Positions 46,308 through 62,121 are shown, numbered from the stretch's first letter. The stretch is DNA of 64,000 nucleotides from Polyangiaceae bacterium (GCA_020849655.1 JADLFU010000066.1:1-64000), one strand, 5' to 3'. Numbers and translations are program-made. Notes: a model not told the origin generated them from the letters alone.

Positions 46308-46315
46308 GGTCACCC
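46245..46315. repeat. 71-bp direct repeat, copy 1 (inside metallopeptidase 3' end)
   Basis: Matches 47610-47680 at 68 of 71 bases in the same orientation. It covers the last 21 codons and stop of the metallopeptidase gene and the last codons of the convergent ATP-grasp gene. Mismatches are near 46256, 46268 and 46309. Confidence 0.9.
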
Positions 46316-47218: not shown

Positions 47219-47254
47219 GAGGAGGTGGGCCAGGGGTCCCCCCAGGGTCCGCCG

Positions 47255-47482
47255 TCAGTCGCGATTGGAGTCGGTGGGCTGCCCCCTGCCGTCGAAGGTC
47301 TGGAGCGTCTGCCCGCCCACGGTCGTCGAGTCCATGGGCTGCCCCCTGCCGTTGAACGTCTGCTTCTGCGGGCCTCCGACGGGCGCCACCCTGCCCTGGG
47401 TGGCCCAGTCGTAGGCGCCCGCGTCGCGGTGCTCGATCGTCGGCATGCTCGCGAGGTCGTCCGGTGTGAAGAGTCGGTCCAT
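47255..47482 (-). CDS. Candidate graspetide precursor peptide
   Basis: A 75-residue peptide from ATG at 47482, with GGAGA (47491-47487) as Shine-Dalgarno. Leader-like part (about residues 1-40) begins MDRLFTPDDLASMPTIEHRD. The C-terminal part holds two near copies of a 12-residue motif: QTFNGRGQPMDS (41-52) and QTFDGRGQPTDS (61-72), period 20, separated by TTVGGQTL. Each has a Thr and a downstream Asp eight residues later, suitable for side-chain ester closure. There is no Cys. The gene is 36 bases upstream of the ATP-grasp gene, the usual placement of a RiPP substrate and its ligase. The core does not match the microviridin (TxKxPSD) or plesiocin (TTxxxxEE) cores I know. Confidence 0.72.
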   Translation of the reverse strand: MDRLFTPDDLASMPTIEHRDAGAYDWATQGRVAPVGGPQKQTFNGRGQPMDSTTVGGQTLQTFDGRGQPTDSNRD

Positions 47483-47691: not shown

Positions 47692-49005
47692 TCAGAACCC
47701 CACCTTGTCACGCCCCCCCCCCCCGACGGGCGCCACCTTCGTGGGGACCGCGGGCTTCGCCGGGTGAGGCACCTTGGCGGTCGGGTTCGCTGGTGGAGCG
47801 GCGCTCGCGCTTGGCGCCGCAGGCGCCTGGGGCGCGGCCGAGCTCTCGCCGGCGGGCGCAGGCGTGGGGGGAGGGTCGGCGGGCGTGGGCGCTGTCGACT
47901 TCGGCTCGGGAGCGGCGACCGACGCGGCGGGCGCCGACTCACCTGCGGGCCCGCTACGCATAACAACAAATCCAACTCCCGACGCGAGGAGCACACCCGC
48001 GACGAGCGCCCCGCCCACGACCAGGCCCTTGCCCTTCGCCGGCGGGGGCGTCTGCACCGTCCGCGCCGCGTCTCCGAGGGTGACCGGTCGCTGCGCGGGC
48101 GGGAGCCCGTCGGACACGCCGGGCATCGACACCATCGACTCGCGCGCCGAGCCTGCCGCCGGGGCCTCGCCCAGCGCCGCTGCCAACCCATCCACCAGCT
48201 CGCGCACGCTGCCATAGCGCTCGCTGGGCTCGCGCGCGCTCGCCCGCTGCCAGAACACCTCGATCGCCTCGGGCAGCTCCGGCGCGCGCTCGCGCACCGT
48301 CGGGATGGGGTACGACACGATGCGCAGGATGAGATCACCGAGCGAGTCGCTGTCGAACGGGCGGAACCCGGTCAGGCACTCATACACAATCACGCCGAGC
48401 GACCAGACGTCGGAGCGGTGATCGATCGCCTTCACGCCCTTCGCCTGCTCGGGCGACATGTAATACGGCGTGCCCATCACCGATCCGGTGCGCGTCTGCA
48501 CCCCCGCGGCGAGCGGATCGATGAACTTGGCGATGCCGAAATCGAGGATCTTCACGAGGTCGCGATCCTCGTCGCGCACGAGGAAGAGGTTGTCGGGCTT
48601 CAGGTCGCGGTGCACGATCCCGAGCCCGTGCGCCTTGGTGAGCGCGCGCGCCGCCTGGCTCACGAGCTCGAGCACCACGCGCGGCGGGAGCTTCGTCATC
48701 CGCTCGAGGCGCTTCGAGAGCTCCTCGCCCTCGAGCAGCTCCATCGCGATGTAGGGCATGTCGTCCCAGGTGCCCGTGTCGAGCACTTGCACCACGTTCG
48801 GGCTCCGCAGCGCGGCGGCCGCGCGCGCCTCCGTCGCGAACCGGGCGCGGGCGTCCTCGGTGACGGCGGCGCTCTCGATGAACTTGACCGCGCACGGGAT
48901 GCCGAGCTGCAGGTGGTGCGCGAGCCAGACCGAGCCCATCCCGCCGCGGCCGAGCTCGCGGACGAGGCGAAAGCGATCCGCGACGACGAGGTCTGCCTGC
49001 GGCAT
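47692..49005 (-). CDS. Ser/Thr protein kinase, membrane-anchored (module 1)
   Basis: A 437-residue PknB-type kinase. Gly-rich loop ELGRGGMGSVW, Lys41 in AVKF, HRDLKPDN with Asp134, DFGIAKF with Asp155 and GTPYYMSPEQAKG, so it is predicted active. After the kinase domain there is one membrane helix (GLVVGGALVAGVLLASGVGF) and a Pro/Ala/Ser-rich periplasmic tail without a recognised sensor domain. The ATG at 49005 follows the lipoprotein stop by two bases (TAGCCATG). It is last in the module operon TPR/PEGA, lipoprotein, kinase. The 3' end carries a run of 12 G on the coding strand. Confidence 0.94.
   Translation of the reverse strand: MPQADLVVADRFRLVRELGRGGMGSVWLAHHLQLGIPCAVKFIESAAVTEDARARFATEARAAAALRSPNVVQVLDTGTWDDMPYIAMELLEGEELSKRLERMTKLPPRVVLELVSQAARALTKAHGLGIVHRDLKPDNLFLVRDEDRDLVKILDFGIAKFIDPLAAGVQTRTGSVMGTPYYMSPEQAKGVKAIDHRSDVWSLGVIVYECLTGFRPFDSDSLGDLILRIVSYPIPTVRERAPELPEAIEVFWQRASAREPSERYGSVRELVDGLAAALGEAPAAGSARESMVSMPGVSDGLPPAQRPVTLGDAARTVQTPPPAKGKGLVVGGALVAGVLLASGVGFVVMRSGPAGESAPAASVAAPEPKSTAPTPADPPPTPAPAGESSAAPQAPAAPSASAAPPANPTAKVPHPAKPAVPTKVAPVGGGGRDKVGF
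47713..47724. repeat. Homopolymer C12 (G12 in the kinase coding strand)
   Basis: Twelve C bases near the 3' end of the kinase gene encode a short poly-Gly (PVGGGGRDKVGF). A length change would only alter the last few residues. Such runs slip in vivo and are also a common sequencing-error site. Confidence 0.85.
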
Positions 49006-49007
49006 GG

Positions 49008-51113
49008 CTACTTCGAGACCCCGCGGAGCGAGCCCTGCACAGTATAGAACACCGTGGTGGCGCTGGTGGCGAGCGCGGCCCCGATCGCGGTGACCGGAGG
49101 CGTGCCCGTGGCGATCGCGCGGTAGCCGCTGCCGTCGTACTTGACGAAGCCGACGAGGTTCTCCTGCGTCCAGTAGACGCCGTCGGCGTCGGCCACCAGG
49201 CCCGTGACCGGCTTCGTGGTCGTGAAGATGACCAGCTTCGGCCCGCCCGCGATGAGGCCCGACGTGATCGTCGACGTGCTCGCGCCGTGCTTCGCCCACA
49301 CGAGCGACGTGCCGGAGACGGCCATCAAGTCCGCCTCCTCACCGCTGTACAGCTCCTCCACCACGGTATCTCCCGCCTGCACGCGCGACACGCTCGGCCC
49401 CGCGGCGGTGAAGAACACGTACTTGGACGTGGCGGCCAGCCCGTACGCGTCGGACTCGCAGCCGGCGACGTCGAAGACGCCCACGGCGCCCGTCATGCTG
49501 CCCCGGACCTTGTCGTTCGCGGACTCGGTCCAGAAGATGTAGCCCCCCCCGAGCGCCGCGGTCCGCGTCCCGACGCCGCCCGCGTAGGCTTGCGAGGTGG
49601 TCGCTTTCAATGAGTTGGTGGACCACACGTAGCGACGCAACGAGTCGGCCAGCAGCCCCAGCGTGGCGCCGCCGCCGAGGTTCACGCTGCCCGAGGACAC
49701 GCCGTTCGCGCTGAGGTCGAGCGGCCACACGTACACGGCGGTCGAGCTGCCGCCGGTGTTGGCGGCGTAGACGTTCGCCCCCTCCACCGCCACGGCCGCG
49801 ATCCCGCCGAGCCCCGAGCCCACGACAGGGGCGCAGGCGCCGGCGACGCAGGAGCCGATGGCGCAGGCGTGGCCGCACGTGCCGCAGTGATCCTTCGATG
49901 TCTGCAGATCGACGCAGGTTCCGTTGCACATCGAAGCGCAGGTGCACGCCGACGAGTCCACCCCGCAGGCGCTGGTGCACGTGACCTGCCCCGACCACAG
50001 CGGGCCCTTCACCGACGCGCACGTGTTCGAGCCGAGGTCGCTCCCGTCACACGCCTCCGCGCCGTCGAGCTTGCCGTTGCCGCAGTACTGACAGGCGGCG
50101 GTGGAGACGTTGCAGCTCGCGTCGCACGAGAGGCTCCCGGACGCGGGCTTGCCAGTGACGGAGGCGCAGGTCGAGGTGCCAAAGTCGCTCTTGTCGCAGG
50201 CCTCGCTCCCCTCGCGGTCGCCGTCGCCGCAGTACACGCAGTCGCTCGTGCTGCGGGTGCAGTTGGACTTGCACGTCAGCGTCCCGGTGCCTCCTGGGAA
50301 GAGTGATCCGCACGAATCGGCGCCGAAGTCCTGGCCATCGCACTCCTCCGTGCCGCCCCGCGTCCCGTCGCCGCAGCCGGGCGGCGCGGAGCACCCGGAG
50401 GTGTCCAGTGAACAGTCGGACTTGCAGCTCACGCTGCCCGTGCTGCCCGTCCCGACGGCGGAGGCGCAGGTCGCCCCGTTGACGTCGGCCCCCTCGCAGG
50501 CCTCTGTGTTGTTGCGCTTGCCATCGCCGCAGTACTCGCACTTCGACGTGTCGAACTGGCAACCGCTGGTGCAGGACAGCGTGCCGGTCGCGGCCTTCCC
50601 GGTGGCGGTCGCGCAGGTGTTGCTGGCGAGATCCGCGCCGTCACACTGTTCGCTGCCCTGGCGCGCGCCGTCTCCGCACGTGCCGCCGCTCCCGCCGGAG
50701 CCCGCGACCGCGCCGCCGCTCCCGCCGGCCCCACCGACCGCGCCGCCGCTCCCACTCGAGCCCGCGACCGCGCCGCCGCTGCCGGCCTTCCCGGACGATC
50801 CTCCGCCGGACGTGCCTGCGCTCCCCGCGGCGGCCCCGCCGCCGTTGCCAGCCTTCCCGGACGATCCTCCGCCGGACGTGCCTGCGCTCCCTGCGGCGGC
50901 CCCGCCACCCGTCGCGCCCGCCCCCCCCTGGGCCGTGCCACCCTTGCCGCTGCCGGCCGCGCCGGCCGTCGAGCCCGCGGCGCCGGCCCCGCCCGCGCTC
51001 CCGCCCGTGGCCGCGCCTGCCTTCCCCTCGGGGCCGTCGAACGAGTAGCTGTCGCCGAGGACCTGCGCGCAGCCCACCAGCCCGAGCAGCCCCGTCAGCC
51101 AGATCGTGCGCAT
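49008..51113 (-). CDS. Lipoprotein with myxobacterial disulfide repeats and propeller-like C-terminus (module 1)
   Basis: A 701-residue exported protein starting at ATG 51113, overlapping the previous stop as TGATG. Lipobox GLVGCAQ (Cys15). A Gly/Ser/Ala linker follows to about residue 140, including a repeated AGTSGGGSSGKAG unit. Then come five repeats of about 45 residues of the type CGDGxxxxxExCDGxDxGxxTC followed by GTLxCxxxCxxDxSxC, the myxobacterial disulfide-repeat type. The C-terminal 280 residues have repeated short strands (VYAANTGGSSTAVYVWPLDL, GVYWTQENLVGFVKYDGSGY) resembling a beta-propeller. Probably a surface adhesion or recognition protein served by the same operon as a kinase. 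Confidence 0.88.
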   Translation of the reverse strand: MRTIWLTGLLGLVGCAQVLGDSYSFDGPEGKAGAATGGSAGGAGAAGSTAGAAGSGKGGTAQGGAGATGGGAAAGSAGTSGGGSSGKAGNGGGAAAGSAGTSGGGSSGKAGSGGAVAGSSGSGGAVGGAGGSGGAVAGSGGSGGTCGDGARQGSEQCDGADLASNTCATATGKAATGTLSCTSGCQFDTSKCEYCGDGKRNNTEACEGADVNGATCASAVGTGSTGSVSCKSDCSLDTSGCSAPPGCGDGTRGGTEECDGQDFGADSCGSLFPGGTGTLTCKSNCTRSTSDCVYCGDGDREGSEACDKSDFGTSTCASVTGKPASGSLSCDASCNVSTAACQYCGNGKLDGAEACDGSDLGSNTCASVKGPLWSGQVTCTSACGVDSSACTCASMCNGTCVDLQTSKDHCGTCGHACAIGSCVAGACAPVVGSGLGGIAAVAVEGANVYAANTGGSSTAVYVWPLDLSANGVSSGSVNLGGGATLGLLADSLRRYVWSTNSLKATTSQAYAGGVGTRTAALGGGYIFWTESANDKVRGSMTGAVGVFDVAGCESDAYGLAATSKYVFFTAAGPSVSRVQAGDTVVEELYSGEEADLMAVSGTSLVWAKHGASTSTITSGLIAGGPKLVIFTTTKPVTGLVADADGVYWTQENLVGFVKYDGSGYRAIATGTPPVTAIGAALATSATTVFYTVQGSLRGVSK

Positions 51114-52084
51114 CAGAACGTCCCCCCGACGCCGGCGCTCGCGCCGGTGCCCTTCGTGCTCCCGTTGACGAGGAAGTACGTCCCCGCTCCCAGCCCGACG
51201 ACGCCCACCGCGAACCCGATGGTGGACAGCGTCGCGGCGGACTTGAACGAGTCGTGCGTGCCCTCTGCGGAGGGAGGACACTTGCCGTCGACGCAGGCGC
51301 CGTTCAGATCGCTCTTCTTCCCCATCGCCTTCAGCCCGAACACAGCGCCCACGAGGACGCCCACCGCGCCGACGCCGAGGCCGACGTACGCGCCGGGGTG
51401 GGTCTTGCCCTTGCTCGCGGGGGCGGGCTCGGGCGGGGCCGCGGGCGGAGGCGACGCAGCGGGGGGCGCGGCCACGGGCGTAGCGCCCGACAGCGGCTGC
51501 AGCGTGAGCGTGACGCTGGCGTCTCGCTTGCCCTCCGCGACGATCACCTCGGCCTCGGCGGCCTGCATGCCGTCGGCCTCGGCCCGCACCTTGTGGGGTC
51601 CAGGATCGATGGGCCTCGGCGACCCGAGCGCGGCCGACGAGAGGGGCTCGCCGTCGACCGTGACGCGAGGCTCCTTCGCGCCGGCCGGCTTCACGATCTG
51701 CACGGTGAGCGCCGGGACGCGGGGCGCGAGCTCGGCGAGCTCCTTCGCGGCGACCCTCACCGCGTCGACGAAGGCCGCGGGCGACCCGGGCGGCAGCTGC
51801 TCGCGGCTGAGGCGCTGGTACACCTCCTGCGCGAGCACGAGGCGGCCGACCTTGACGGCGGACCGCGCGAGGCCGAGCTCGACCGTCGGCGCAGAGTAGA
51901 GTTTGTTTGCTTTCGTGAACGACTGGAAGGCGCCCGAGAAATCCTGCTTCGCGAGCTGGTCTAGGCCTTGCTGCGTGAGCTGACGGGCCTGCGCCTTGTC
52001 CGCGTCGGAGGGCGCCGCAGCGACGGGGTACGCCGCGCTGAGCGTCGTCGCCACGAGGAGGATCGAGAGGAAAGTGCGGCGCAT
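51113..52084 (-). CDS. Exported TPR/PEGA membrane protein (module 1)
   Basis: A 323-residue protein. The frame is open further upstream, but MRRTFLSILLVATTLSAAYP is a clear signal peptide, so ATG 52084 is chosen. It has a TPR-like helical part (QLTQQGLDQLAKQDFSGAFQ), then a PEGA-type beta domain (EPRVTVDGEPLSSAALGSP and PGPHKVRAEADGM), a Pro/Ala linker, and two membrane segments (GLGVGAVGVLVGAVFGL and FAVGVVGLGAGTYFLV). Between them lies a loop with two Cys (NGACVDGKCP). The same layout recurs at 59667-60674. First gene of kinase module 1. The function is unknown; PEGA domains often bind at the cell surface. Confidence 0.85.
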   Translation of the reverse strand: MRRTFLSILLVATTLSAAYPVAAAPSDADKAQARQLTQQGLDQLAKQDFSGAFQSFTKANKLYSAPTVELGLARSAVKVGRLVLAQEVYQRLSREQLPPGSPAAFVDAVRVAAKELAELAPRVPALTVQIVKPAGAKEPRVTVDGEPLSSAALGSPRPIDPGPHKVRAEADGMQAAEAEVIVAEGKRDASVTLTLQPLSGATPVAAPPAASPPPAAPPEPAPASKGKTHPGAYVGLGVGAVGVLVGAVFGLKAMGKKSDLNGACVDGKCPPSAEGTHDSFKSAATLSTIGFAVGVVGLGAGTYFLVNGSTKGTGASAGVGGTF

Positions 52085-52169
52085 GAGAATGGCGTCGAGC
52101 GGAGCACGACGCTCCGGACCGGTCAAGAGCCGGAGCCGCCGCGGCGCGGGGCCGTGACAGGATGCGCGC

Positions 52170-52266
52170 ATGAACACGCTCGAGCCCTGTAGCTACTGCG
52201 GCAACACCTCGTTCACCTGCGTGCCGAACGTCGCGCTCGACTCCGGGCACCTGGCAACCGAGGTCG
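52170..52266 (+). pseudogene. Possible truncated zinc-ribbon gene start
   Basis: An ATG at 52170 opens MNTLEPCSYCGNTSFTCVPN, a CxxC knuckle typical of small zinc-ribbon proteins, followed by VALDSGHLATEVV. After about 31 codons the frame runs into the 3' end of the opposite-strand lipoprotein and becomes Arg/Pro low complexity. It looks like a remnant whose second CxxC is lost. The evidence is the residue pattern only. Confidence 0.35.
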
Positions 52267-53499
52267 TCAGCGCGCCGAGGCGCCCCAGAACGCGACGCCA
52301 GGCGTGCTCAGCACGGAGCCTGCGCCCGTCGCGGGATCGATCGACAGCACCTCGCCGTTGCACGTCAGGCCGTAGAGCAGGCTGCCGTAGGCCGCGAGGC
52401 CCCAGATGCAGTCGAAGCCAGTGCTGCCCACGATCGAGCCCGCGCCGGTCACCAGATCGAGCTCGACGAGCACGTCCGGGCCCGTGCTCGCGCCCGCGTT
52501 CGCGGTGCCGAGCAGGCGCCCGTCGAGGAAGGCCAGATCGCCCGACGCGGACGTGCCAGGCGGGAAGCTCGCGACCTTCGTCGCCACGCCGACCGAGGGC
52601 AGGAGGCGCAGCACCGCGCTCGACGCGGCCACGTAGAGCGCGCCGTCGGGCCCCGCGTCCATGCCGACCGCGTCCATCACGCCCTTCACCCCGACGACCG
52701 GCGTGAGCTTCGCGGTCTTCGTGTCGACGGTGAGCAGCGCGTTGAAGGTGAGCGCGTAGAGCGTCCCGTCGGAGGTGAGCGCGATGTCAGTGATGCTGGT
52801 CGTGCCGAGGGGGCCGATGAGCTTGTCCTTGCCGCTCGGCAGGCGCACCTCGTAGAGTTTGTTCACGCTGTGCGCGTAGGCGAGGGCCGAGCACCCGCCC
52901 TCGCTCGCGTCGCACGTGTGGCTGACGGGGCAGAGCGAGTCGTCGGGCTTCGACGCGCAGGCGCCGGTCGGCTCCGCGCAGACGTCGACCGTGCAGGCGA
53001 CGCCGTCGTCGCAGCTGAGGCCCGGAGAGACGCAGCCGAGGCTCGGATCGCAGACCTCGACGCCGTTGCACGCCTGCGCGTCGTGGCACTGGCTGTCGAC
53101 GGGGGTGTGCACGCACGCGCCGGCGACGCACGCGTCGGAGGTGCACGCGACGCCGTCATCGCAGTCGAGCGACAGGCAAGGGTCGACGGCGCCGCCCGCG
53201 CCCGCGCCACCTCCGGCCGCGCCGCCCGCGCCCGCGAGCGATCCGCCCGCGCCCGCGCCGCCCGCGAGCGATCCCCCCGCGCCCGCGCCGCCCGCCAGCG
53301 ATCCCCCCGCGCCCGCGCCCGCGAGACCCGCCGCGCCGGACGCGCCTCCGACCTGCTGCCCCGCTGCGCCCGCCTTGCCGCCATGCGCGCCGCCCGCGCC
53401 GCCCCTCAGCATCGGGACGGGCTCGTCCTCGAACGATGATCGGCCGCCGCACGCGAGCGAGGAGAGCAGCGCGACCGGCGCGAGCCAGCGGATCGACAT
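52267..53499 (-). CDS. Cys-rich lipoprotein with propeller-like domain
   Basis: A 410-residue exported protein from ATG 53499, overlapping the previous stop as TGATG. Lipobox SSLACGG (Cys17). Gly/Ala/Ser linker (about 30-105) with GAGAGGSLAG repeats. Then Cys-rich segments of the type CDDGVACTSDACVAGACVHT repeated two to three times, as in myxobacterial extracellular proteins. The last 210 residues show strand repeats (ITDIALTSDGTLYALTFNAL, GPDGALYVAASSAVLRL) of an SMP-30/NHL-like propeller. It is the third gene of the HEAT, propeller/HEAT, Cys-rich operon. No enzyme motif. Confidence 0.85.
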   Translation of the reverse strand: MSIRWLAPVALLSSLACGGRSSFEDEPVPMLRGGAGGAHGGKAGAAGQQVGGASGAAGLAGAGAGGSLAGGAGAGGSLAGGAGAGGSLAGAGGAAGGGAGAGGAVDPCLSLDCDDGVACTSDACVAGACVHTPVDSQCHDAQACNGVEVCDPSLGCVSPGLSCDDGVACTVDVCAEPTGACASKPDDSLCPVSHTCDASEGGCSALAYAHSVNKLYEVRLPSGKDKLIGPLGTTSITDIALTSDGTLYALTFNALLTVDTKTAKLTPVVGVKGVMDAVGMDAGPDGALYVAASSAVLRLLPSVGVATKVASFPPGTSASGDLAFLDGRLLGTANAGASTGPDVLVELDLVTGAGSIVGSTGFDCIWGLAAYGSLLYGLTCNGEVLSIDPATGAGSVLSTPGVAFWGASAR

Positions 53500-55313
53500 C
53501 ACGCCTTGCCTTTCTTCTTCGTGGGCTTCACGTCGACGTCCTCGTCGGCGGGGATGACGACCCCCTCCGCGAGCGGCTCGAGGCGCGCCTTCACGCTCGG
53601 GAGCGTGAACGTGTCGCGCGCGGCGCGCGCGACGATGATCTTGCCGCGCAGGCCGGCGATCTTCACGAGCGCCTCGGCGACGCGACCGACCGCCTCGACC
53701 ATGTCGTCGTTCTCGGCGGTCGCGCGGTTGAGCGCGAGGAACGCCTCGAGATCGCGCACCTCCGCCTCTCCGCCGAGCGCGATCATCGCGGCGGCGGCGT
53801 GCTTCACGTCGTCGGGGGACGTCTGCGGATCGAGCAGCGCCTTGACCAGCAGCGGGGCGGCGCGCCGCTCGCCCATCGCCGCGAGCGCGTCCGCGATGGG
53901 CCCGACCGGCGGCGGCCGCGAGACGTCGCGCAGGTAGTCGTACGACTGGCCGAGCGCCGCGAGCAGGTGCTCGGCCCCCGTCCGCCGGGCCGCGAGCATC
54001 GCGCGCACGTCCGCGGCGAGCGCGGGCGACGTGCGCGGATCGCGCGCGAGCTCCACGAGCACGCGCGTCGCCTCGCCGTCCTGCTGCTGCGCGAGCTCGC
54101 GCAGGATGTACCGCTGCGCCGTCACGAGATCGTGCGCGCCCACGCGCAAGGCGTCGCCCATCTGCGCCGCGAGCGACGGGGGCGCGGCGCCCGACGCCGC
54201 CCGCTCGAGGCCGTCCGCGAGCACGACGCACGAGCGCAGCGCGCGCCCGAGCGACAGCGCGCCGTTGGGCATGCCGCTCGCGGCGTCGTAGAAGGTGACC
54301 TTCCCCTCGGCGTCGCACAGCGCGAGCCCGCCCCTGTACGCCGCGCCGCCGAGCGCGTCGGCCGCGAGCGGCCGCACCCAGCGCAGCCCCGGATCGGTCG
54401 CCGAGAGCCCGAACGCCAGGCGGTAGTACGTCGAATAGTAGGCGCCGCCCTCGACGGCGAGCGGCGCGGGCGCGGGCGTCGGGCGGGCGTACACGCGCAC
54501 CTTGTCGGTCGCGCCCGCCGTCACCTCCTTGCGCTCCCCCGCCGGTTGCAGCCACCGCGCCGTGCCGACGAGCTCTCGCTCGGGGAGCGTGAGCGTGCTC
54601 GCGAGGCCGCGCGAGGCGCCCCCGATGCCCTCATCAAATCTGACAAGACTGATCTCGCCGAAGTACAGCGCGCCGCCCACTCGCAACGCGTGGCTCGCGC
54701 CGACGCGCAGCGTGACGCGCGCGATCTCGTCGCCGGCGCCGATGTCGTACGCGGTGACGTACTGGCCCTGCCACGGGAAGAACGCGATGCCGGCGAGGAC
54801 CGCGGGGCGGCCGATCTTCTTGTCGGTCTCGACCTGTCGCAGCACGGTGCCGTCGCGCGCGATGGCGAGCGCGGTGCTGCCGGTGCCGCCGGGCTGCTCG
54901 ATCGCGACGACCGTGAGCTCGCCGTCGTCGCCCGCGCCGATGAGCTCGCCGCCGCCGATCGCGCGGCGCCAGAGCAGGTTGCCGGTCGACGACTGCAGGC
55001 AGAAGAGCTCGCCGTCGCCCGCGCCGACCACCACCCCGCCGGCCACGTCGGGCCGGGAGGACAGCTTGTGCGAGAACGTCCACGTCGAGCCGCCGGACAG
55101 CGGGATCCCCACGATCGCGTCGTCGCCGACGCCCACCGCGACGTCGACGGGCGGCGCGGGCTGCCTGTCGCGCAGGCGCGCCTCGAGCGCCGAGATGCTG
55201 CGGCCGCCGTCGTCCTCCCAGTCGGTCGTGAACGCGCGACCGAGGCGCGTCTGGCCCGCGCTGCACGCGGCGAGCGACACGAGCGGCAAGAGCGCGGCGA
55301 GCCGGCGGATCAC
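53499..55313 (-). CDS. Lipoprotein with PQQ-type beta-propeller and HEAT-like repeats
   Basis: A 604-residue protein from GTG 55313, coupled to the upstream gene by GTGA. Signal peptide and lipobox SLAACSAG (Cys17). The N-terminal 330 residues hold propeller strands of BamB/PQQ type (GELFCLQSSTGNLLWRRAIG, GKVTFYDAASGMPNG). The C-terminal 270 residues are HEAT-like helical repeats (APLLVKALLDPQTSPDDVKH, LAQQQDGEATRVLVELARDP). It ends in a Lys-rich tail (KPTKKKGKA). An outer-membrane-associated scaffold is plausible; it is not BamB itself, because the bam genes are absent and the fusion is unusual. Confidence 0.85.
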   Translation of the reverse strand: MIRRLAALLPLVSLAACSAGQTRLGRAFTTDWEDDGGRSISALEARLRDRQPAPPVDVAVGVGDDAIVGIPLSGGSTWTFSHKLSSRPDVAGGVVVGAGDGELFCLQSSTGNLLWRRAIGGGELIGAGDDGELTVVAIEQPGGTGSTALAIARDGTVLRQVETDKKIGRPAVLAGIAFFPWQGQYVTAYDIGAGDEIARVTLRVGASHALRVGGALYFGEISLVRFDEGIGGASRGLASTLTLPERELVGTARWLQPAGERKEVTAGATDKVRVYARPTPAPAPLAVEGGAYYSTYYRLAFGLSATDPGLRWVRPLAADALGGAAYRGGLALCDAEGKVTFYDAASGMPNGALSLGRALRSCVVLADGLERAASGAAPPSLAAQMGDALRVGAHDLVTAQRYILRELAQQQDGEATRVLVELARDPRTSPALAADVRAMLAARRTGAEHLLAALGQSYDYLRDVSRPPPVGPIADALAAMGERRAAPLLVKALLDPQTSPDDVKHAAAAMIALGGEAEVRDLEAFLALNRATAENDDMVEAVGRVAEALVKIAGLRGKIIVARAARDTFTLPSVKARLEPLAEGVVIPADEDVDVKPTKKKGKA

Positions 55314-56155
55314 GGGGCCTCCTTCTTCGAGTCGACGGCGCCCGCGGTCGCGCGCGCGGCCTGCTCGAGCGCCGTCTTCACGCGGTCGGAGCCGGAGAAG
55401 CCCTCGGCCTGGCCCTTCAGGAACCGATGCGCCTCGCCGGTCGCGAGGTCCCGCACGCGCTCGATGATCTTGACCTTCTGATCGTCGCTGACGTCGGCGC
55501 GGGACAGGATCTGCTGGAAGCCGCTCGTCATCACGTCGAGCGGGAGCTTCGTGGTCTGCCTGGCGAACGCCTCGCACTCGTCGCCCCGGCAGAGCTGGCC
55601 GATGGCCGCGGCCGCCTCCAGCACCTTGCGCGAGAGCGCGAGCGTCAGCTCGGGCAGGGCCTCGTGCGCGCCGAGGGCGCCGAGCCCGCTCGCCGCGGCG
55701 CCCCGCACGCGGGCGTCGGCGTCGGACAGCGCCCCGCGCATCGTGGGCACCGCGGCCGAGCCCCGCACCTTCGTGAGTGCGCCGAGCGCCGCGCGGCGGA
55801 TCTCCGCGTCGCGGTGCTTCGCGTAGCGCGCCACGTCGCCGCTGCTCGACGGCTCGCCGATCTCCGCCGTCGCGCCGAGCGCCTCCTTCGCCAGCTCGCG
55901 CGACAGCCCGCGGTCGAGCAGCCGCACGAGCAACGGCAGCACCGGCGCGGCGTCCTTGCCCCCGGCGCGCACCGCCGCGAAGCCCTCGCGCAGCCGCGCG
56001 GGATCTCCGCTCGTGAGGAGCTGGGCCGTCGCCTTCGCGTCGAATTTCGGGGGCTTCGAGCGCGATCGAGGCGCGGCCTCTGCCGGCGACGACGCGAGCG
56101 CGAGCGCGAGCCCCGCCACCCACATCAGCCCAGAGTTGCCCACCGACCTGCTCAT
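55310..56155 (-). CDS. Exported HEAT-repeat protein
   Basis: A 281-residue protein from ATG 56155, with a Sec signal peptide (LALALASSPAEA-AP). The mature part is HEAT-like repeats such as RDAEIRRAALGALTKVRGSA and SDADARVRGAAASGLGALGA. A Cys pair occurs in QLCRGDECEAF. It lacks a lipobox. It is first in the three-gene operon and is divergent from the cytochrome/PHM gene across 54 bases. A periplasmic scaffold is inferred. Confidence 0.82.
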   Translation of the reverse strand: MSRSVGNSGLMWVAGLALALASSPAEAAPRSRSKPPKFDAKATAQLLTSGDPARLREGFAAVRAGGKDAAPVLPLLVRLLDRGLSRELAKEALGATAEIGEPSSSGDVARYAKHRDAEIRRAALGALTKVRGSAAVPTMRGALSDADARVRGAAASGLGALGAHEALPELTLALSRKVLEAAAAIGQLCRGDECEAFARQTTKLPLDVMTSGFQQILSRADVSDDQKVKIIERVRDLATGEAHRFLKGQAEGFSGSDRVKTALEQAARATAGAVDSKKEAP

Positions 56156-56209
56156 CCGCCGGTCTTCAGCATGGTCGCGGCGGGAAAACCAGGCAAATTG
56201 GGCGCACCC

Positions 56210-57625
56210 ATGACCCAGCTCAAGATCCTGACGCTCTCGGCGCCCCTCGTGCTCACCGTCGCGGCCGCTTGCGGCGGCGGATCCGACAGCGGAGGCGCGG
56301 CGGGCGGAGGCGCCGCCGCGACCGCGGGCGATCTGCCCTGCGAGGTCGCCGCGCTCGTCGCGGCGCGGTGCCAGGAGTGTCACTCGAACCCGCCGACGAA
56401 CACGGCGCCGGTGCCGCTCGTGACCGCGGCGGACTTCCGCGCGAAGGGGGTCGCGTCGCCCGCGACGCCGGACGGCGCGGACAAGACGCTCGGCGAGCTC
56501 GCGGTGGCGAAGCTCTCCGCGACGACGAACCCGATGCCGCCCGCGCCACGCGCGCCCGCGACCGACGCGGAGAAGGCCGCGCTGCAGGCGTGGGTCGCCG
56601 CCGGGATGCCGCCACGCGCGGCCGGTGAGACGTGCGGCGCGGGACAGGGCGGCGGCGGGCAAGGCGGCGGCGCGCAGGGAGGTGCCGCCCAGGCGGGCGG
56701 CGCGCAGGGTGGGAGCGCGCAGGGTGGGCAGGCCGGCGCGCCGTCGGCGAGCTGCACCCCCGACATCGTGCTGAAGGCCGCGACGCCATGGACGATGCCG
56801 AAGGCGACGGCCGACGAGTACGTCTGCTTCGGCGTCGAGCTGCCCGCGTCGGCGGAGGACCGCCACGTCACCGCGATCCTGCCGAGGGTCGACAACACGA
56901 AGATCGTGCATCACTTGCTGGTGTACCGGGTGGAGGCGAGCGAGAAGATCTCGCCGACGCCGGCGCCCTGCGCGAACGTCGTCAAGCCGGGCTGGAAGCT
57001 CTACTACGCGTGGGGCCCGGGCACCCCGCCCGCCGTGTTGCCCGCAGAGGCTGGCTACCGGATGCCAGGCGGGCAGAGCTCTCACTACATCGTCAACATC
57101 CACTACTCGAACCTCACCCACCTCGACGGCGAGCGCGACGCGACCGAGATCGATCTCTGCAGCGGGCCGCCGCGCCAGTACGACGCCGACGTGCTCGCGG
57201 TCGGGTCGACGGACTTCGATCTGCCCGCGCACGCCGAGTCCACGATAGAGTGCTCGACGAAGGCCGCCATCATCCCGTCGACGGCCCCGTACCACGTGTT
57301 CCAGACCTGGCCCCACATGCACCTGCTCGGCACGCACCTGTCGACGGAGATCCGCCACGCGGACGGCACGTCGACGCCCGTCACCGATCGCCCGTACGAC
57401 TTCTACAGCCAGATCACCTACCCGCTCGCGCTCACCGTCGACAAGACCGACACTTTCATCACGCGCTGCACGTGGAACAACACCACCGCGTCGAAGGTCT
57501 CCTTCGGCGAGAACACGGCGCAGGAGATGTGCTTCAACTTCCTCTCGTATTACCCCGCGCCGCCCCCCGGGGCGACGTGGGCCTGGATCGCCCCCTCTGC
57601 CCTCGCGACCTGCAAGAAACAGTGA
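56210..57625 (+). CDS. Cytochrome c/PHM-like copper monooxygenase lipoprotein
   Basis: A 471-residue exported protein with lipobox TVAAACGG (Cys21). Residues about 40-140 are a small cytochrome c-like domain with CQECH at 54-58 and MPPAP near 109-113. A Gly/Gln linker (142-178) follows. Residues about 180-471 match the two-domain ascorbate-dependent copper monooxygenases (PHM/DBM): CuM/CuH-type ligands are in place as His234-His235 (KIVHHLLVYR), His298 (NIHYS), His369 and His371 (WPHMHLLG) and Met440 (AQEMCFNFLSYYP). Predicted to hydroxylate or otherwise oxidise an extracytoplasmic substrate with electrons from its own heme. The start at 56210 is preferred to 56171. Its TGA overlaps a GTG by GTGA. 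Confidence 0.88.
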   Translation: MTQLKILTLSAPLVLTVAAACGGGSDSGGAAGGGAAATAGDLPCEVAALVAARCQECHSNPPTNTAPVPLVTAADFRAKGVASPATPDGADKTLGELAVAKLSATTNPMPPAPRAPATDAEKAALQAWVAAGMPPRAAGETCGAGQGGGGQGGGAQGGAAQAGGAQGGSAQGGQAGAPSASCTPDIVLKAATPWTMPKATADEYVCFGVELPASAEDRHVTAILPRVDNTKIVHHLLVYRVEASEKISPTPAPCANVVKPGWKLYYAWGPGTPPAVLPAEAGYRMPGGQSSHYIVNIHYSNLTHLDGERDATEIDLCSGPPRQYDADVLAVGSTDFDLPAHAESTIECSTKAAIIPSTAPYHVFQTWPHMHLLGTHLSTEIRHADGTSTPVTDRPYDFYSQITYPLALTVDKTDTFITRCTWNNTTASKVSFGENTAQEMCFNFLSYYPAPPPGATWAWIAPSALATCKKQ

Positions 57626-57749
57626 AGGCGCGCCCGGGGCGCCTCCGCACGTCGCGCGCGCGCTCGTCGTCTCGCTCGGGATCGCCGCCGCCGGCCTCGG
57701 CGCCGCCGTCGCGCTGAGGCCCGCGCCGTCGCCCCCGCCCGCGCCCGGC

Positions 57750-58661
57750 GTGTCCGGGAGCGCCGCGGGGGATGACTTCCCCGAGGCGACTGGCGAGGCC
57801 CAGGCGCCGCTGCGCGAGCCGCTGGTGCTCACCGCCGACGAGCAGCGCCGCGGGATGGGGGAGTGCGCGACGCCCGATCCGGGCAGGGGCGACTACGGCG
57901 ATCCGGGGACGCTGCCGGGCGGGGGACACATCGTCATCCCGCGGAGCGGCGGGCACGACGACTCGCTCGGGTTCGACGTGGTGCTTCACTTTCATGGCTT
58001 CCCTGCGATGCGCAAGAGCGTCGTGCGCGCGCGCACCGGCGTCGTCCTCGCCGGCTATGACTGGGGGACGGGCAGCGGGGCCTACGAGGCGCGCGCCGAG
58101 CCCGGCCGGATGTTCGAGGCCCTCACGACGGACGTCACCCGCGCGCTGCGGGCGCACACGGGTGACGAGCGGGCGCACGTCCGTCACCTCGCGCTCTCGG
58201 GCTGGAGCGCGGGCTACGGCGCGGTGAGCGCGCTCTTGCGCAAGGGCGACTCGGGCGTCGACGCGGTCGTGCTGCTCGACGGGTTCCACGCGAGCTACGG
58301 CCCCGGCGCGCGGGGCGACAGGGTCGACACCACGGCGCACGCCGCGATCGTCGCGTTCGCGGAGCGCGCCGCGCACGGCGAGAAGACCTTCTACTTCACC
58401 CACAGCGCGATCCAGACGACTGGCTACGCCTCGACGACCGAGGTGGCGGCGCTGCTGGCGTCGCGGCTGGGCGTCACGCTCACCCAGGCCGAGGGGACGG
58501 ACGATCCGCTCGGCCTGCGCGCGTTCGCCGACGTCCGGGGGTTTCACTTGCGGAGCTTCAAGGGCGACGACAAGCGAGCGCACTGTGATCACCTGCGCCA
58601 CGCGACCGCGGCCATCCGGGACGTGCTCGTGCCCGCGTGGCAGACCCCGGCGCCCGGGTAG
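57750..58661 (+). CDS. Alpha/beta-hydrolase-like protein, N-terminus apparently frameshifted
   Basis: A 303-residue frame from GTG 57750. It has the nucleophile elbow LALSGWSAGYGAV (GxSxG), the strand VVLHFHGFP for the oxyanion region, and a later LLDGFHASYG Asp strand; a His occurs at AHCDHLRHAT. So a serine hydrolase fold is likely, but the substrate is unknown. The frame upstream of 57750 encodes a clear signal-anchor (ALVVSLGIAAAGLGAAVALR) with no start codon. A GTG at 57622, coupled to the monooxygenase stop, would reach it if the (CG)5 tract at 57653-57662 were one unit shorter. The true gene is probably 57622-58661, about 345 residues. Confidence 0.8.
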   Translation: MSGSAAGDDFPEATGEAQAPLREPLVLTADEQRRGMGECATPDPGRGDYGDPGTLPGGGHIVIPRSGGHDDSLGFDVVLHFHGFPAMRKSVVRARTGVVLAGYDWGTGSGAYEARAEPGRMFEALTTDVTRALRAHTGDERAHVRHLALSGWSAGYGAVSALLRKGDSGVDAVVLLDGFHASYGPGARGDRVDTTAHAAIVAFAERAAHGEKTFYFTHSAIQTTGYASTTEVAALLASRLGVTLTQAEGTDDPLGLRAFADVRGFHLRSFKGDDKRAHCDHLRHATAAIRDVLVPAWQTPAPG

Positions 58662-58671
58662 CTCGGTCAGC

Positions 58672-59670
58672 TCAGCGACAGCCGAGCGCGGCCGCCGCCA
58701 CCTCGTCGCCCTTGCCGCAGAACGCGAGCGCGAAGACCTTGCAGGAGACGACGTGGGTGCTGCCGCAGTAGGGGCCGATGCCCGTCCCCGTGCGCGAGGG
58801 GGTGTACGGGACGTACCCGGTGCCGGAGCACGCGCCGATGGCGAGGCCGCTGCACGCGGGCTCGAAGGTCATCGCGGCCGGGCTCTCCTTGCCGTCGCAG
58901 TCGTAGTCGAACGAGACGTTCGCGGGAGCGCCGGGCAGCGCGTAGGGCGCGCCGAAATAGGCGGTCTGCCCCGGGAAGACGTCCTTGTTGCCGTCATGAC
59001 AGTCATCGGCCTCGAGGACCCATTTCGCCGTGGGCTCCTCGGGGGGCTGGGTGCAGGAGTCCTGGCTGCCGAGCAGCGGGGTGCCGTGCCCGTCCTTGTC
59101 GACGTCGCGGTACCAGGTCTTCATGGTGCAGCCGCCCCCGCCTGCCTGACCTGCGCCGCCCTGACCTGCGCCGCCCTGGCCGGCGCCGCCCTGACCTGCG
59201 CCGCCCTGACCTGCCCCGCCCTGGCCGGCCCCGCCCTGGCCGGCCCCGCCCTGACCCGCTCCGCCCTGGCCGGCCCCGCCCTGACTTGTGCCGCCCTGGC
59301 CGGCCCCGCCCTGACCCGCTCCGCCCTGGCCGGCCCCGCCTTGACCTGCGCCCGCCTGCCCCGAGTCTCCGGCCTGCCCCGCGCCCGCCTGTCCGGCGGC
59401 TCCGCCTTGACCCGCGCTCGGCTGGCCTGCTTGTCCGGCCGATCCACCCAGCCCCGCGCTCGGCTGGCCTCCTTGACCCGCGCCCCCCTGCCCGGCCCCC
59501 ACCTGACCGCCGCCGCCGCGCCCCGCAGCCTGGCTGCCCGCAGTGCCCTGGCTCGCGCCGGCAGCGCCGACGGGGGCGGCCGCGTAGTCGTCGAAGTCGT
59601 AGGAGCCCGTGAGCGCGCACCCGGCGGACCCGAGCAGCACAGTGATCGCCAGCGCGTGGACGGACCTCAT
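58672..59670 (-). CDS. Gly/Gln-repeat lipoprotein with MopE-like metal-binding motif (module 2)
   Basis: A 332-residue exported protein. Lipobox LLGSAGCALT (Cys18). Residues about 40-178 are a linker that becomes 15 tandem AGQGG units. The C-terminal 155 residues are Cys-rich and begin TMKTWYRDVDKDGHGTPLLG, then DDCHDGNKDVFPGQ and VSFDYDCDGKES. This is the calcium/copper-motif pattern of MopE-like and other myxobacterial surface proteins (DxDxDGxG then DCxDGxxxxxPG). The ATG overlaps the previous stop as ATGA. It is the last gene of module 2 (kinase, TPR/PEGA, lipoprotein). Confidence 0.87.
   Translation of the reverse strand: MRSVHALAITVLLGSAGCALTGSYDFDDYAAAPVGAAGASQGTAGSQAAGRGGGGQVGAGQGGAGQGGQPSAGLGGSAGQAGQPSAGQGGAAGQAGAGQAGDSGQAGAGQGGAGQGGAGQGGAGQGGTSQGGAGQGGAGQGGAGQGGAGQGGAGQGGAGQGGAGQGGAGQGGAGQAGGGGCTMKTWYRDVDKDGHGTPLLGSQDSCTQPPEEPTAKWVLEADDCHDGNKDVFPGQTAYFGAPYALPGAPANVSFDYDCDGKESPAAMTFEPACSGLAIGACSGTGYVPYTPSRTGTGIGPYCGSTHVVSCKVFALAFCGKGDEVAAAALGCR
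59140..59364 (-). repeat. 15-bp tandem repeat encoding AGQGG units
   Basis: Fifteen consecutive 15-base units, one of them TSQGG and the last AGQAG, lie inside the lipoprotein gene. Near identity of many units suggests recent slippage-driven expansion. Confidence 0.88.
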
Positions 59671-60674
59671 GGGAGCGCTCCCTTCACGGACAGTGTGGCC
59701 GCGCCGGGGGCAGCGTGCACGCCCAGCGCCGTGCGCGCCTCGCCCGAGGGCCCGCGCCGGAGGATGAGGTACGTCCCCACCCCCACGCCGACCAGCCCCA
59801 CGGCCCAGAGCGCTGTGTTGACCTTCAACAGTGACTTGCCGCTGCTGGCGGCGTCGAGGCCCTGCTGATCGCAGACGCGACCGCCCTTGTCACAGTGATC
59901 GTCGACGGTGCCTTGCTTCGACGAGAGCATCAGCCCCGTGATCCCGGCGCCGACCAAGCCGAGCGCGCCGACCCCGGCGACGGCGTAGCCCGTCGTGCGA
60001 GAGGGGTGCGCAGACGGGGGCGAAGGTGGCGGCTCGGCCGCTGACGCCGCGGGCTCCACCTGCGCAGGCGCCGAGGAGGAGGCGGGGGCAGGGGCAGCTG
60101 CGATCGCCGCGCCGGGCGCGACCTCGATCGAGCGTGACTCCCCGACCACCAAGGAGACGCGCGCCTCGGCGTCCTTGTGGCTCGGCGCGCGCGCGACGAT
60201 CACGTGCTCGCCCGGGTCGACCGGCAGCGCCACGTCGAGCCCCGCCGCGCGCAGCTCCACGCCGTCACGCACGACCACGGTGCCAGGAGGGGCGGCCTTC
60301 TTCAGGCGGATGGTCAGCTTGGGGAGCTTCTTCTCGAGCGCGGCGAGCCGCTGACGCGCGATGGGCAGGCGATCGTCGGTGAGCTTGCCGGCGGACGTCA
60401 GCGTGTCGACGAGGCGCTGCCAGCGCTCGTGGGCGGAGGCCACGCGCCCTCGCCCCTCCTCGCACTCCGCGAGGTTGAAGAGCGTGCCGGGGGCCGGATC
60501 GAGGCGCAGGCTCTCGGCGAGCTTGGGGCAGGCGGCGTCGAAGTTCTTCTGCTTCAGGAGCGCGCGCGCCTCGCGGAAGAGCGCGTCGGCCGCCGCGGGA
60601 TCCCTCGTGTCGGCGAGCGCGGGGCCCCCGACCACGATCAAGGACAGCGGGAGCCACGTGAAGCGCCGAGTCAT
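59667..60674 (-). CDS. Exported TPR/PEGA membrane protein (module 2)
   Basis: A 335-residue paralogue in layout of the protein at 51113-52084. Signal peptide (MTRRFTWLPLSLIVVGGPAL), TPR-like helices (ALLKQKNFDAACPKLAESLR, LFNLAECEEGRGRVASAHER), a PEGA-like domain (GTVVVRDGVELRAAGLDVAL, PGEHVIVARAPSHKD), a Pro/Ala linker and two membrane segments (AVAGVGALGLVGAGITGLML, LWAVGLVGVGVGTYLIL) with two Cys in the loop between (DDHCDKGGRVCDQQG). ATG 60674 is four bases after the kinase stop; a GTG at 60695 overlaps the kinase gene and is an alternative. Second gene of module 2. Confidence 0.86.
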   Translation of the reverse strand: MTRRFTWLPLSLIVVGGPALADTRDPAAADALFREARALLKQKNFDAACPKLAESLRLDPAPGTLFNLAECEEGRGRVASAHERWQRLVDTLTSAGKLTDDRLPIARQRLAALEKKLPKLTIRLKKAAPPGTVVVRDGVELRAAGLDVALPVDPGEHVIVARAPSHKDAEARVSLVVGESRSIEVAPGAAIAAAPAPASSSAPAQVEPAASAAEPPPSPPSAHPSRTTGYAVAGVGALGLVGAGITGLMLSSKQGTVDDHCDKGGRVCDQQGLDAASSGKSLLKVNTALWAVGLVGVGVGTYLILRRGPSGEARTALGVHAAPGAATLSVKGALP

Positions 60675-60678
60675 CGGC

Positions 60679-62121
60679 TCAGTTTCTTGACTCACCCGGG
60701 TCGCGACGTCCAGCGGGCAGAGGCGCGGGCACCGGGGGTGTGGGCTTCGTGGGCTGCCTGGGCTCGGCGCGCCTGGGCTCGGCGCGCCTGGGCGGCGGCG
60801 CGCTCGACGGTGACGCGCTCGGCGCCTCGGTCGACGGAGGCGGCGTGACGATCGGGGGAGCCGCGCTCATCGTCGCGGCGGGCGGCCCTGCGGACGCGGG
60901 CGCGGCAGATCCGGCGGGCGCCGGCGCGTCGGACCGCAGCGCCAGCGTCAGCCCCAGGGCGGCGAGCAGCGCGAGCGCGACGAGCGCGGCGACCACGCCG
61001 CGCCGACCGAACGCCCGCGGGGCCACGAGCTCGGTGAGGTCGACCTCTGACGAGACTCCCCGTGACGACGCGAGCGTCTCCGTCGCCTCGGGGGTGTCCG
61101 GCGCGCGCGGCTGGCGCGTGGTCGCTGGCCCGGGCATCGGCGCCGAGACGACGGCGCTCGTGGCGCTCGCGAACGACGAGCGCGGCGGCGGCGGCGGCGG
61201 CACGAACCCGGCGGGGGACGGCTTCGGTGGCACGAACACCGCGCTCGACGCGGCCGCCGCGCGCAGCGCCTGGCGCATCTCCTCCGCGGACGCCCACCGG
61301 TCGGCGGGATCGAACGCGAGCGCGCGGTCGACGACCGCCACGATGGGCGCGGGCACGCCGGGCGCGACGGTCGCGAGCGAGCGCGCGCGCTGGGTCATCA
61401 CTTGCACGAGCAGCGCCGAGACCGTGGGCACGTCGTGCACGAGCTTGCCGCTGATCAAGTAGAAGAGCGTCGCGCCCGTCGACCAGAGATCGGTGCGCGC
61501 GCCGACGGCGCCCCGCTCTCCGCGCGCCTGCTCGGGCGGCATGAACGCAGGCGTGCCGAGGCTCGAGCCGCTCTGCGTCGACGAGACGCCCGCGCCGGTG
61601 ACCTCGTCGATGCGGGCGATGCCGAAGTCGAGCACCTTCGTCTCGCCGTCGACCGTGAGGAAGATGTTCTCGGGCTTGATGTCGCGGTGGACCATCCCTC
61701 GCCGGTGCCCCGCCTCGAGCACGGCGAGCACGGCGTCGGTCACCGCGAGCGCGTCGCCGAGCGCGAGGTGGCCGTCGAGGCGGTCGCAGCGCGCGTCGGC
61801 CGTCTCGCCCTCGAGCAGCTCCATCACCAGGAAGGGCACGCCGTCGATCGCGCCGTCATCGAGCACCGAGACCGCGCCCGGGTGCTCGACGAGGTTCGCC
61901 GCGTAGCCCTCCCGCACGAACCGCTGCACGACGTGCGGCACGACGGCGAGGTGCGGGTGCAGGAGCTTGATGGCGACGCGCTTGCCGTTGCGGTGCCGCG
62001 CCGCGTACACCGCTGCCATCCCCCCGACGCCGAGCACCGCCTCGAGCTGCCACTTGCCGTCGATGACCGTGTGGAGACGGTCTCGAGCCATCGGCAAGAG
62101 GGGGTTCTCGAGCTCCGTCAT
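60679..62121 (-). CDS. Ser/Thr protein kinase, membrane-anchored (module 2)
   Basis: A 480-residue PknB-type kinase from ATG 62121. Gly-rich loop VLGVGGMAAVYAA, Lys52 in AIKLL, HRDIKPEN with Asp147, DFGIARI with Asp165 and GTPAFMPPEQARG, so all catalytic residues are present. A juxtamembrane Pro-rich stretch (FVPPPPPPRSS) precedes one membrane helix (VVAALVALALLAALGLTLAL). The tail is Ala/Pro/Ser-rich with PRRAEPRRAEPRQP repeats and no sensor domain. First gene of module 2; the order of genes is reversed relative to module 1. Confidence 0.94.
   Translation of the reverse strand: MTELENPLLPMARDRLHTVIDGKWQLEAVLGVGGMAAVYAARHRNGKRVAIKLLHPHLAVVPHVVQRFVREGYAANLVEHPGAVSVLDDGAIDGVPFLVMELLEGETADARCDRLDGHLALGDALAVTDAVLAVLEAGHRRGMVHRDIKPENIFLTVDGETKVLDFGIARIDEVTGAGVSSTQSGSSLGTPAFMPPEQARGERGAVGARTDLWSTGATLFYLISGKLVHDVPTVSALLVQVMTQRARSLATVAPGVPAPIVAVVDRALAFDPADRWASAEEMRQALRAAAASSAVFVPPKPSPAGFVPPPPPPRSSFASATSAVVSAPMPGPATTRQPRAPDTPEATETLASSRGVSSEVDLTELVAPRAFGRRGVVAALVALALLAALGLTLALRSDAPAPAGSAAPASAGPPAATMSAAPPIVTPPPSTEAPSASPSSAPPPRRAEPRRAEPRQPTKPTPPVPAPLPAGRRDPGESRN

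Follow-up and report, generated by a model that had tools for sequence, protein, structure and literature searches.

Each of two operons in the stretch of DNA analysed here (64,000 nucleotides from a Polyangiaceae bacterium, hereafter the window) encodes a membrane Ser/Thr kinase, a TPR protein and a lipoprotein, and the C-terminal peptide of the kinase matches the type of the TPR protein encoded beside it. The family of such units is large and apparently undescribed. From the sequences we consider it probable that the products of each operon assemble into a single sensor-kinase complex, in which the TPR domain would be bound to the tail of the kinase.

Two three-gene operons in the window

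Operon 1 lies on the minus strand and is transcribed in the order TPR1 (52084-51113, 323 aa), lipoprotein 1 (51113-49008, 701 aa) and kinase 1 (49005-47692, 437 aa). The stop of TPR1 and the start of lipoprotein 1 overlap by 1 nt, and a gap of 2 nt separates lipoprotein 1 from kinase 1. Operon 2, on the same strand, is transcribed in the order kinase 2 (62121-60679, 480 aa), TPR2 (60674-59667, 335 aa) and lipoprotein 2 (59670-58672, 332 aa), with a gap of 4 nt between the first two genes and an overlap of 4 nt between the last two. All six reading frames were found where the initial annotation had placed them, in two coupled operons of different gene order.

The same annotation spoke of two copies of one module. 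Two complete operons are indeed present, but a local duplication was rejected. The domains of the two kinases are 35% identical and the two TPR proteins about 31%, and each is much nearer to its own orthologue in a sister genome, with identities of 92% and 81% for the kinase domains and of 78% and 73% for the TPR proteins. Judging from these sequences, the two operons are distant paralogues and members of an old family.

Both gene orders are kept in a same-genus genome, where one locus (L160) has the order kinase, TPR, gene carrying the head of lipoprotein 2, and another (L260) the order TPR, lipoprotein, kinase; synteny, which the annotation had named as a check, thus held for both operons. 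The common order in the family is kinase, TPR, lipoprotein. That of operon 1 is unusual; apart from the sister genome, one similar case was found (L298, in the genome G055 described below).

Several neighbouring genes were also recorded. Directly downstream of kinase 1 (46310-47482, minus strand) are a peptide ORF of 75 aa, in which the segment QTF[ND]GRGQP[MT]DS is repeated, and then an ATP-grasp protein resembling MvdC/SAV_5884 (TIGR04185 1.4e-23 and TIGR04187 2.5e-23, both below the curated cut-offs); by sequence, the pair looks like a graspetide-type peptide locus. Upstream of operon 1, at 52267-56155 (minus strand) and 182 bp from TPR1, stand in tandem a HEAT-repeat protein, a PQQ-like/HEAT lipoprotein and a Gly-rich lipoprotein (ACGGRSSFEDE), which may form one longer transcript with operon 1. 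Between the operons, a secreted protein resembling copper type II ascorbate-dependent monooxygenases is encoded at 56210-57625 (plus strand). Directly upstream of kinase 2 (62228-63985, minus strand) is a protein that combines HEAT repeats with a peptidyl-prolyl isomerase domain of the cyclophilin type.

Structure of the TPR proteins

TPR1 and TPR2 are built alike: behind the signal peptide come a TPR domain, a beta-sandwich and a Pro-rich linker, and then a long helical hairpin whose loop carries a Cys pair. In TPR1 the TPR domain covers residues 27-122 (51719-52006, minus strand, as for all features below), and the AF2 model shows five helices with a pLDDT of about 97. It is followed by a PEGA-like beta-sandwich (residues 125-194, 51503-51712; strands with a pLDDT of about 95) and by the transmembrane hairpin (residues 230-307, 51164-51397), modelled as two long helices at a pLDDT of 60-70. 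The corresponding parts of TPR2 are residues 23-116 (60327-60608, pLDDT about 98), 119-185 (60120-60320, strands with a pLDDT of about 95) and 225-305 (59760-60002, also from the AF2 model). The mean pLDDT of the whole models is 79 and 81, respectively.

TPR2 exceeds the cut-off of the Pfam TPR_2 profile (2e-6). TPR1 has no Pfam TPR match, and belongs to the same family by the family HMM (E 6.5e-89) and to the same fold by AF2; the profiles assign TPR1 to type B, and TPR2 is of type A. The PEGA profile (PF08308) matched neither protein, and among 22 family members it matched six, the best at 5.4e-11.

The initial annotation had described a common ending of two transmembrane segments around a two-cysteine loop. 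This ending proved to be a hallmark of the family, as 190 of 216 members have C-x(2-10)-C within their last 130 residues. C264 and C269 of TPR1 are invariant in 18 type B proteins, and for C261 and C268 of TPR2 conservation across 22 paralogues is 90% or higher. The loop is predicted from sequence to be cytoplasmic.

A structure search, which covered mainly the TPR domain, aligned the TPR2 model best with solved TPR domains that bind C-terminal peptides (Z 13-15), a general property of TPR domains. The full canonical carboxylate clamp (K5 N9 - N6 - K2 R6 over three repeats) was found in neither type. The groove of type A keeps N6 (N67) and R6 (R109), with F at K5 and R or K at N9, and that of type B has neither N6 nor R6.

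As a separate observation, 149 of 216 TPR-family members (e.g. 59667-60674 and L088) end in G-x-[FWLY]-COOH, which is similar to the tails of type B kinases. The adaptor's own C-terminus might be a competitor for a TPR groove.

Kinases and their C-terminal tails

Both kinases consist of a Pkinase domain, one transmembrane segment and a Pro/Ala-rich tail. Against a cut-off of 31.7 bits, the PF00069 profile scored 155.9 bits for kinase 1 (1.8e-45) and 103.1 bits for kinase 2 (2.2e-29). HRDLK or HRDIK (the latter in kinase 2) and DFG are present in both, together with AVKF in kinase 1 and VAIK in kinase 2. Neither operon contains a fused kinase-TPR polypeptide; the two are separate genes.

Exactly one transmembrane segment was found in 149 of 160 kinases paired with a TPR gene, and the net charge is +2.3 before this segment and +0.6 after it. 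Since the excess of positive charge is on the kinase side, the tail of about 100 residues should be periplasmic, and we treat this as its predicted location.

The extreme end of the tail is conserved among paired kinases and falls into classes. Kinase 1 ends with GGGRDKVGF-COOH (47695-47721), a type B tail, and kinase 2 with RRDPGESRN-COOH (60682-60708), a type A tail; their orthologues have AGGRDNVGF and GRRDLGESRN. Genes were called with our own codon-usage caller, which trimmed some starts and left the C-termini unaffected. The tail ends are set by stop codons and escape errors in the calling of starts.

Co-localisation of the three families

About 40 TPR-family genes occur in the source genome, and up to 80 matches were obtained in a relative. 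By sequence search, about 37 TPR relatives were found in the source genome, along with at least 150 kinases; gene calling on 60 of its stretches together with the window gave 40 family members. Twenty-one of the 37 TPR genes have one of 150 listed kinases no more than 2 kb away, where about 13% would be expected (p about 4e-10). Many members in this genome have a kinase directly upstream, and several have a Gly-rich lipoprotein directly downstream. Within the same taxonomic family, 52 of 60 genomes have relatives of TPR2, and at the level of the phylum the profile of the protein family matched 144 of 235 genomes; the counts in most own-family genomes are to be read as "at least".

We then considered 100 loci from relatives, with Sorangium, Minicystis, Polyangium and Labilithrix among them. 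The gene at position -1 is a same-strand kinase for 62 of 98 TPR genes, compared with 0-4% at most other positions, and the gene at +1 is a same-strand lipoprotein for 40 of 99. In G055, a nearly complete genome that served as an independent sample and whose loci were collected with the TPR profile only, 48 of 62 TPR genes have a kinase within two genes. Altogether this holds for 160 of 219 TPR genes, mostly with the kinase directly upstream, and about a quarter have no kinase nearby.

Kinases and Gly-rich lipoproteins are common, so that the threesome could come from chance or from a general clustering of envelope genes. The genome does hold about 150 kinases, and lipoproteins with low-complexity linkers are found elsewhere too. 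However, the enrichment falls exactly at -1 and +1 in three samples, the genes overlap by 1-4 nt, and the kinase tails match the TPR types, as described in the next section. With the proximity to kinases added, these results led us to reject chance clustering, which we regard as extremely improbable.

The three families are therefore co-localised far above chance in three samples, which was the check proposed with the initial annotation. The conserved unit that it described stands in its core. Within the unit the kinase-TPR link is the strongest; a lipoprotein with the motif described below directly follows roughly one in three TPR genes of the two main types.

The tail class of the kinase matches the TPR type

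Kinases beside type A (TPR2-like) proteins have tails such as DPFDKRH and DPLSRRK, and those beside type B (TPR1-like) proteins have tails such as VDFGI and PDLGF; the type B loci were collected by similarity to TPR1 alone. Over all samples, R, K or H stands in the last two residues of 86 of 90 type A kinases and of none of the 28 type B kinases. Conversely, G-[FIYLWV] ends 27 of 28 type B kinases and 0 of 90 of type A. The ending [DN]xG[FIYLWV] was seen in 3 of 1906 non-kinase proteins. The simpler rule that paired kinases carry R at -1 or -2 was discarded, as it held for 9 of 21 paired and 17 of 40 unpaired kinases in the own genome; it becomes informative only after the TPR proteins are typed.

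Beside other TPR-family members, G055 and the own genome contain three more tail classes, KxECL/CM, NPYx and PGSGL. The G055 loci concerned form three groups (L315, L317, L319, L332, L333 and L336; L316, L325, L326, L331 and L335; L312, L313 and L321).

The distance between TPR domains correlates with that between the last six tail residues, with r of 0.36 in type A, 0.47 in type B and 0.245 in the rest (0 of 3000 permutations in each case), compared with 0.06, -0.09 and -0.07, respectively, for a control window of the tail. Hairpin distance tracks the tail weakly. In G055, the partial correlation of TPR domain and tail given the kinase domain is 0.296 (0 of 5000 permutations), and the signal weakens towards positions farther upstream in the tail. 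The source genome likewise shows TPR distance tracking the tail end and not the segments upstream of it, also after allowing for kinase-domain distance. The permutation tests ignore shared ancestry, which makes their p-values too small, and the class counts and the discordant cases described below are the safer evidence.

The match might simply reflect the inheritance of a signalling cassette as a whole, with the tail read by a protease or by another envelope protein and travelling with the TPR type. In agreement with such a history, TPR distances and kinase-domain distances correlate (r 0.57, 88 pairs). The lipoprotein motif also tracks TPR type, following the TPR domain as well as the hairpin, and the covariation of tail and TPR domain is thus not unique. 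Co-inheritance would not, however, readily lead the tail to track the TPR domain better than its own kinase domain, as it does in G055 (partial correlation 0.296 versus 0.106). The adjacent tail segments, which have the same history, show little or nothing, although they evolve fast. In five cases the nearest kinase domain is from the other type, and in all five the tail accords with the TPR type. Divergent or permuted gene pairs also obey the rule (16 of 17 in type A, 8 of 9 in type B), so that the adjoining of the kinase 3' end and the TPR gene is not supported as the sole cause of the match. Taken comprehensively, we think a merely co-inherited cassette unlikely.

TPR distances thus track the tail end, the rule extends to unusual gene orders and to the discordant cases, and TPR domains are known binders of C-terminal peptides. 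We therefore infer, on strong but indirect grounds, that the tail of the kinase is bound by the TPR domain. The initial annotation had proposed looking for interactions between the kinase and the cytoplasmic ends of the PEGA protein; our data instead favour a contact between the C-terminal tail of the kinase and the TPR domain, for each of which a periplasmic location is predicted.

A constant lipoprotein base with variable heads

From the lipidated Cys onward, the downstream lipoproteins have in common the motif C-x-x-[LIV]-[LIVA]-G-x-[DE]. It is followed by a low-complexity linker, often Gly-rich, and then by a variable head. The Gly-rich character noted in the initial annotation was found in the linkers of the window, but as a defining feature it was rejected, since linkers may be rich in Gly, Asp or Ser and the heads differ, while the motif after the Cys is shared.

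In lipoprotein 1 the lipobox is LVGC (Cys15), and the motif reads CAQVLGDSYSFDGP (51030-51071) and CAQVLGDGYSFDET in the sister genome. Behind its Gly-rich linker are Cys-rich repeats; the head had no Pfam match, and only a weak Cys-rich repeat was detected (TIGR02232 myxo_disulf_rpt, 1e-6). The lipobox of lipoprotein 2, SAGC (Cys18), was missed by the strict lipobox pattern and read from the sequence. This protein carries the related motif CALTGSYDFDDY, a long GGAGQ linker and a Cys-containing head of 150 aa; a relative in L161 has CMLAESYDFDGY, and a related head is present in L160.

A lipoprotein with the motif is encoded at +1 of 33 of 74, 7 of 16 and 7 of 30 genes in the three samples, compared with 9 of 731, 0 of 112 and 5 of 771 distal genes. 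Among type A TPR genes, 42 of 116 have such a gene directly 3', and among those of type B, 9 of 34; both are lower bounds because the pattern is strict, and many TPR genes have none. The heads include FGE-sulfatase-like, STIG1, DUF4397, RCC1, Kelch, Peripla_BP_6, C-type lectin, PD40 and other domains, and many are without a Pfam match. By sequence, the base of these lipoproteins seems to be constant and the head exchangeable. They may serve as sensors, a weaker inference than the binding of tail and TPR domain.

A proposed sensor-kinase complex

The complex that we consider probable would be built as follows. With the kinase domain in the cytoplasm, the single transmembrane segment and the disordered Pro/Ala tail of about 100 residues would put the last 5-9 residues into the periplasm. 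There the TPR domain of the neighbour would bind them, just as TPR domains bind the EEVD of Hsp70 and Hsp90, and distinct TPR types reading distinct tails would keep dozens of paralogous complexes apart in one cell. The transmembrane hairpin of the adaptor would anchor the complex. The lipoprotein, kept near by the motif beside its lipid anchor, would offer an exchangeable head to sense an envelope or external cue, and the signal would pass from this head through the adaptor to the kinase, whose activity may change in response. The model gives no role to the conserved Cys pair of the adaptor or to its usual C-terminal Phe.

The adaptor could instead be a factor for assembly or stability without a part in signalling, which holds the tail and tethers the kinase and the lipoprotein at one envelope site, for example at the outer membrane. 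Phe is the last residue in 165 of 216 family members, compared with 9.7% of all proteins, and in L093, L099, L103 and L130 the helical hairpin is replaced by longer C-termini that resemble outer-membrane beta-strands; both points would suit such a role. Most members, however, have the alpha-helical hairpin, which is more typical of the inner membrane, and the sensor-like heads of the lipoproteins fit signalling better than mere tethering. We consider a pure assembly factor improbable and prefer the signalling complex.

Relation to known systems

In the GlnH-GlnX-PknG system of actinobacteria, an extracytoplasmic solute-binding protein signals via a membrane protein to a Ser/Thr kinase (PMC11032199). 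The likeness is one of architecture, that is, an extracytoplasmic protein, a membrane protein and a Ser/Thr kinase in series, with TPRs involved. PknG, however, is cytoplasmic and has TPRs of its own, whereas the present kinase spans the membrane and the TPR domain is separate and predicted to be periplasmic. Variable heads, dozens of copies and distinct tail classes further set the present unit apart from that system as described.

In Ca. Uabimicrobium and S. cellulosum, membrane Ser/Thr kinases have TPR, WD40 or sulfatase-modifying-enzyme domains fused to their C-terminal, periplasmic side (PMC11032199). These also combine a cytoplasmic kinase, one transmembrane segment and a TPR domain across the membrane, and FGE-type domains recur as heads in the present family. 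Their domains are joined to the kinase, however, whereas here the TPR domain and the head are in separate proteins and a short C-terminal peptide is the likely link. Given GlnH-GlnX-PknG and the fused-TPR kinases, the parts and the logic of the unit have precedents.

The carboxylate-clamp co-chaperones Hop, CHIP and PP5, from which the clamp consensus was taken, bind EEVD C-termini (PMC2939883). They resemble the present adaptors in using a three-repeat TPR domain for an extreme C-terminal peptide, putatively so here, and N6 and R6 are kept in type A. In contrast, K5, N9 and K2 are not kept, the tails are basic or G-hydrophobic rather than EEVD, and the predicted location is the periplasm and not the cytosol. 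A functional parallel to the proposed unit is the envelope stress system RcsF-IgaA-RcsC, in which a lipoprotein acts on a kinase pathway through a protein of the inner membrane that has a periplasmic domain (PMC5978795); it differs in being a histidine phosphorelay of unrelated proteins and a single system per cell.

As the initial annotation had supposed for the three-gene unit, no description of it was found in the open-access literature searched, nor of the separate TPR adaptor, the tail classes or the shared lipoprotein base with variable heads. What is new here is that the kinase tail, predicted to be periplasmic, has at its end a short peptide whose class agrees with the TPR type of the neighbour, which is an unusual pairing rule.

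Significance for polyangial kinase signalling

The Ser/Thr kinomes of these organisms are among the largest in bacteria, with 353 kinases in Minicystis rosea and 317 in Sorangium cellulosum So ce56 (PMC8436480). For most polyangial Ser/Thr kinases the input is unknown; if our proposal is right, sequence would point to the adaptor, and often to a candidate sensor, for a share of them. There seems to us an even chance that polyangial myxobacteria use a C-terminal peptide code (with classes such as DPFxxRK, DxGF, KxECL, NPYx and PGSGL) by which kinases would each be wired to their own periplasmic TPR adaptor, and each adaptor would carry an exchangeable sensor lipoprotein. Such a code, if true, would amount to a modular receptor system in which a cell has dozens of membrane Ser/Thr kinases that are paralogues of one another, and the short tails would possibly explain how so many paralogous kinases avoid cross-talk.
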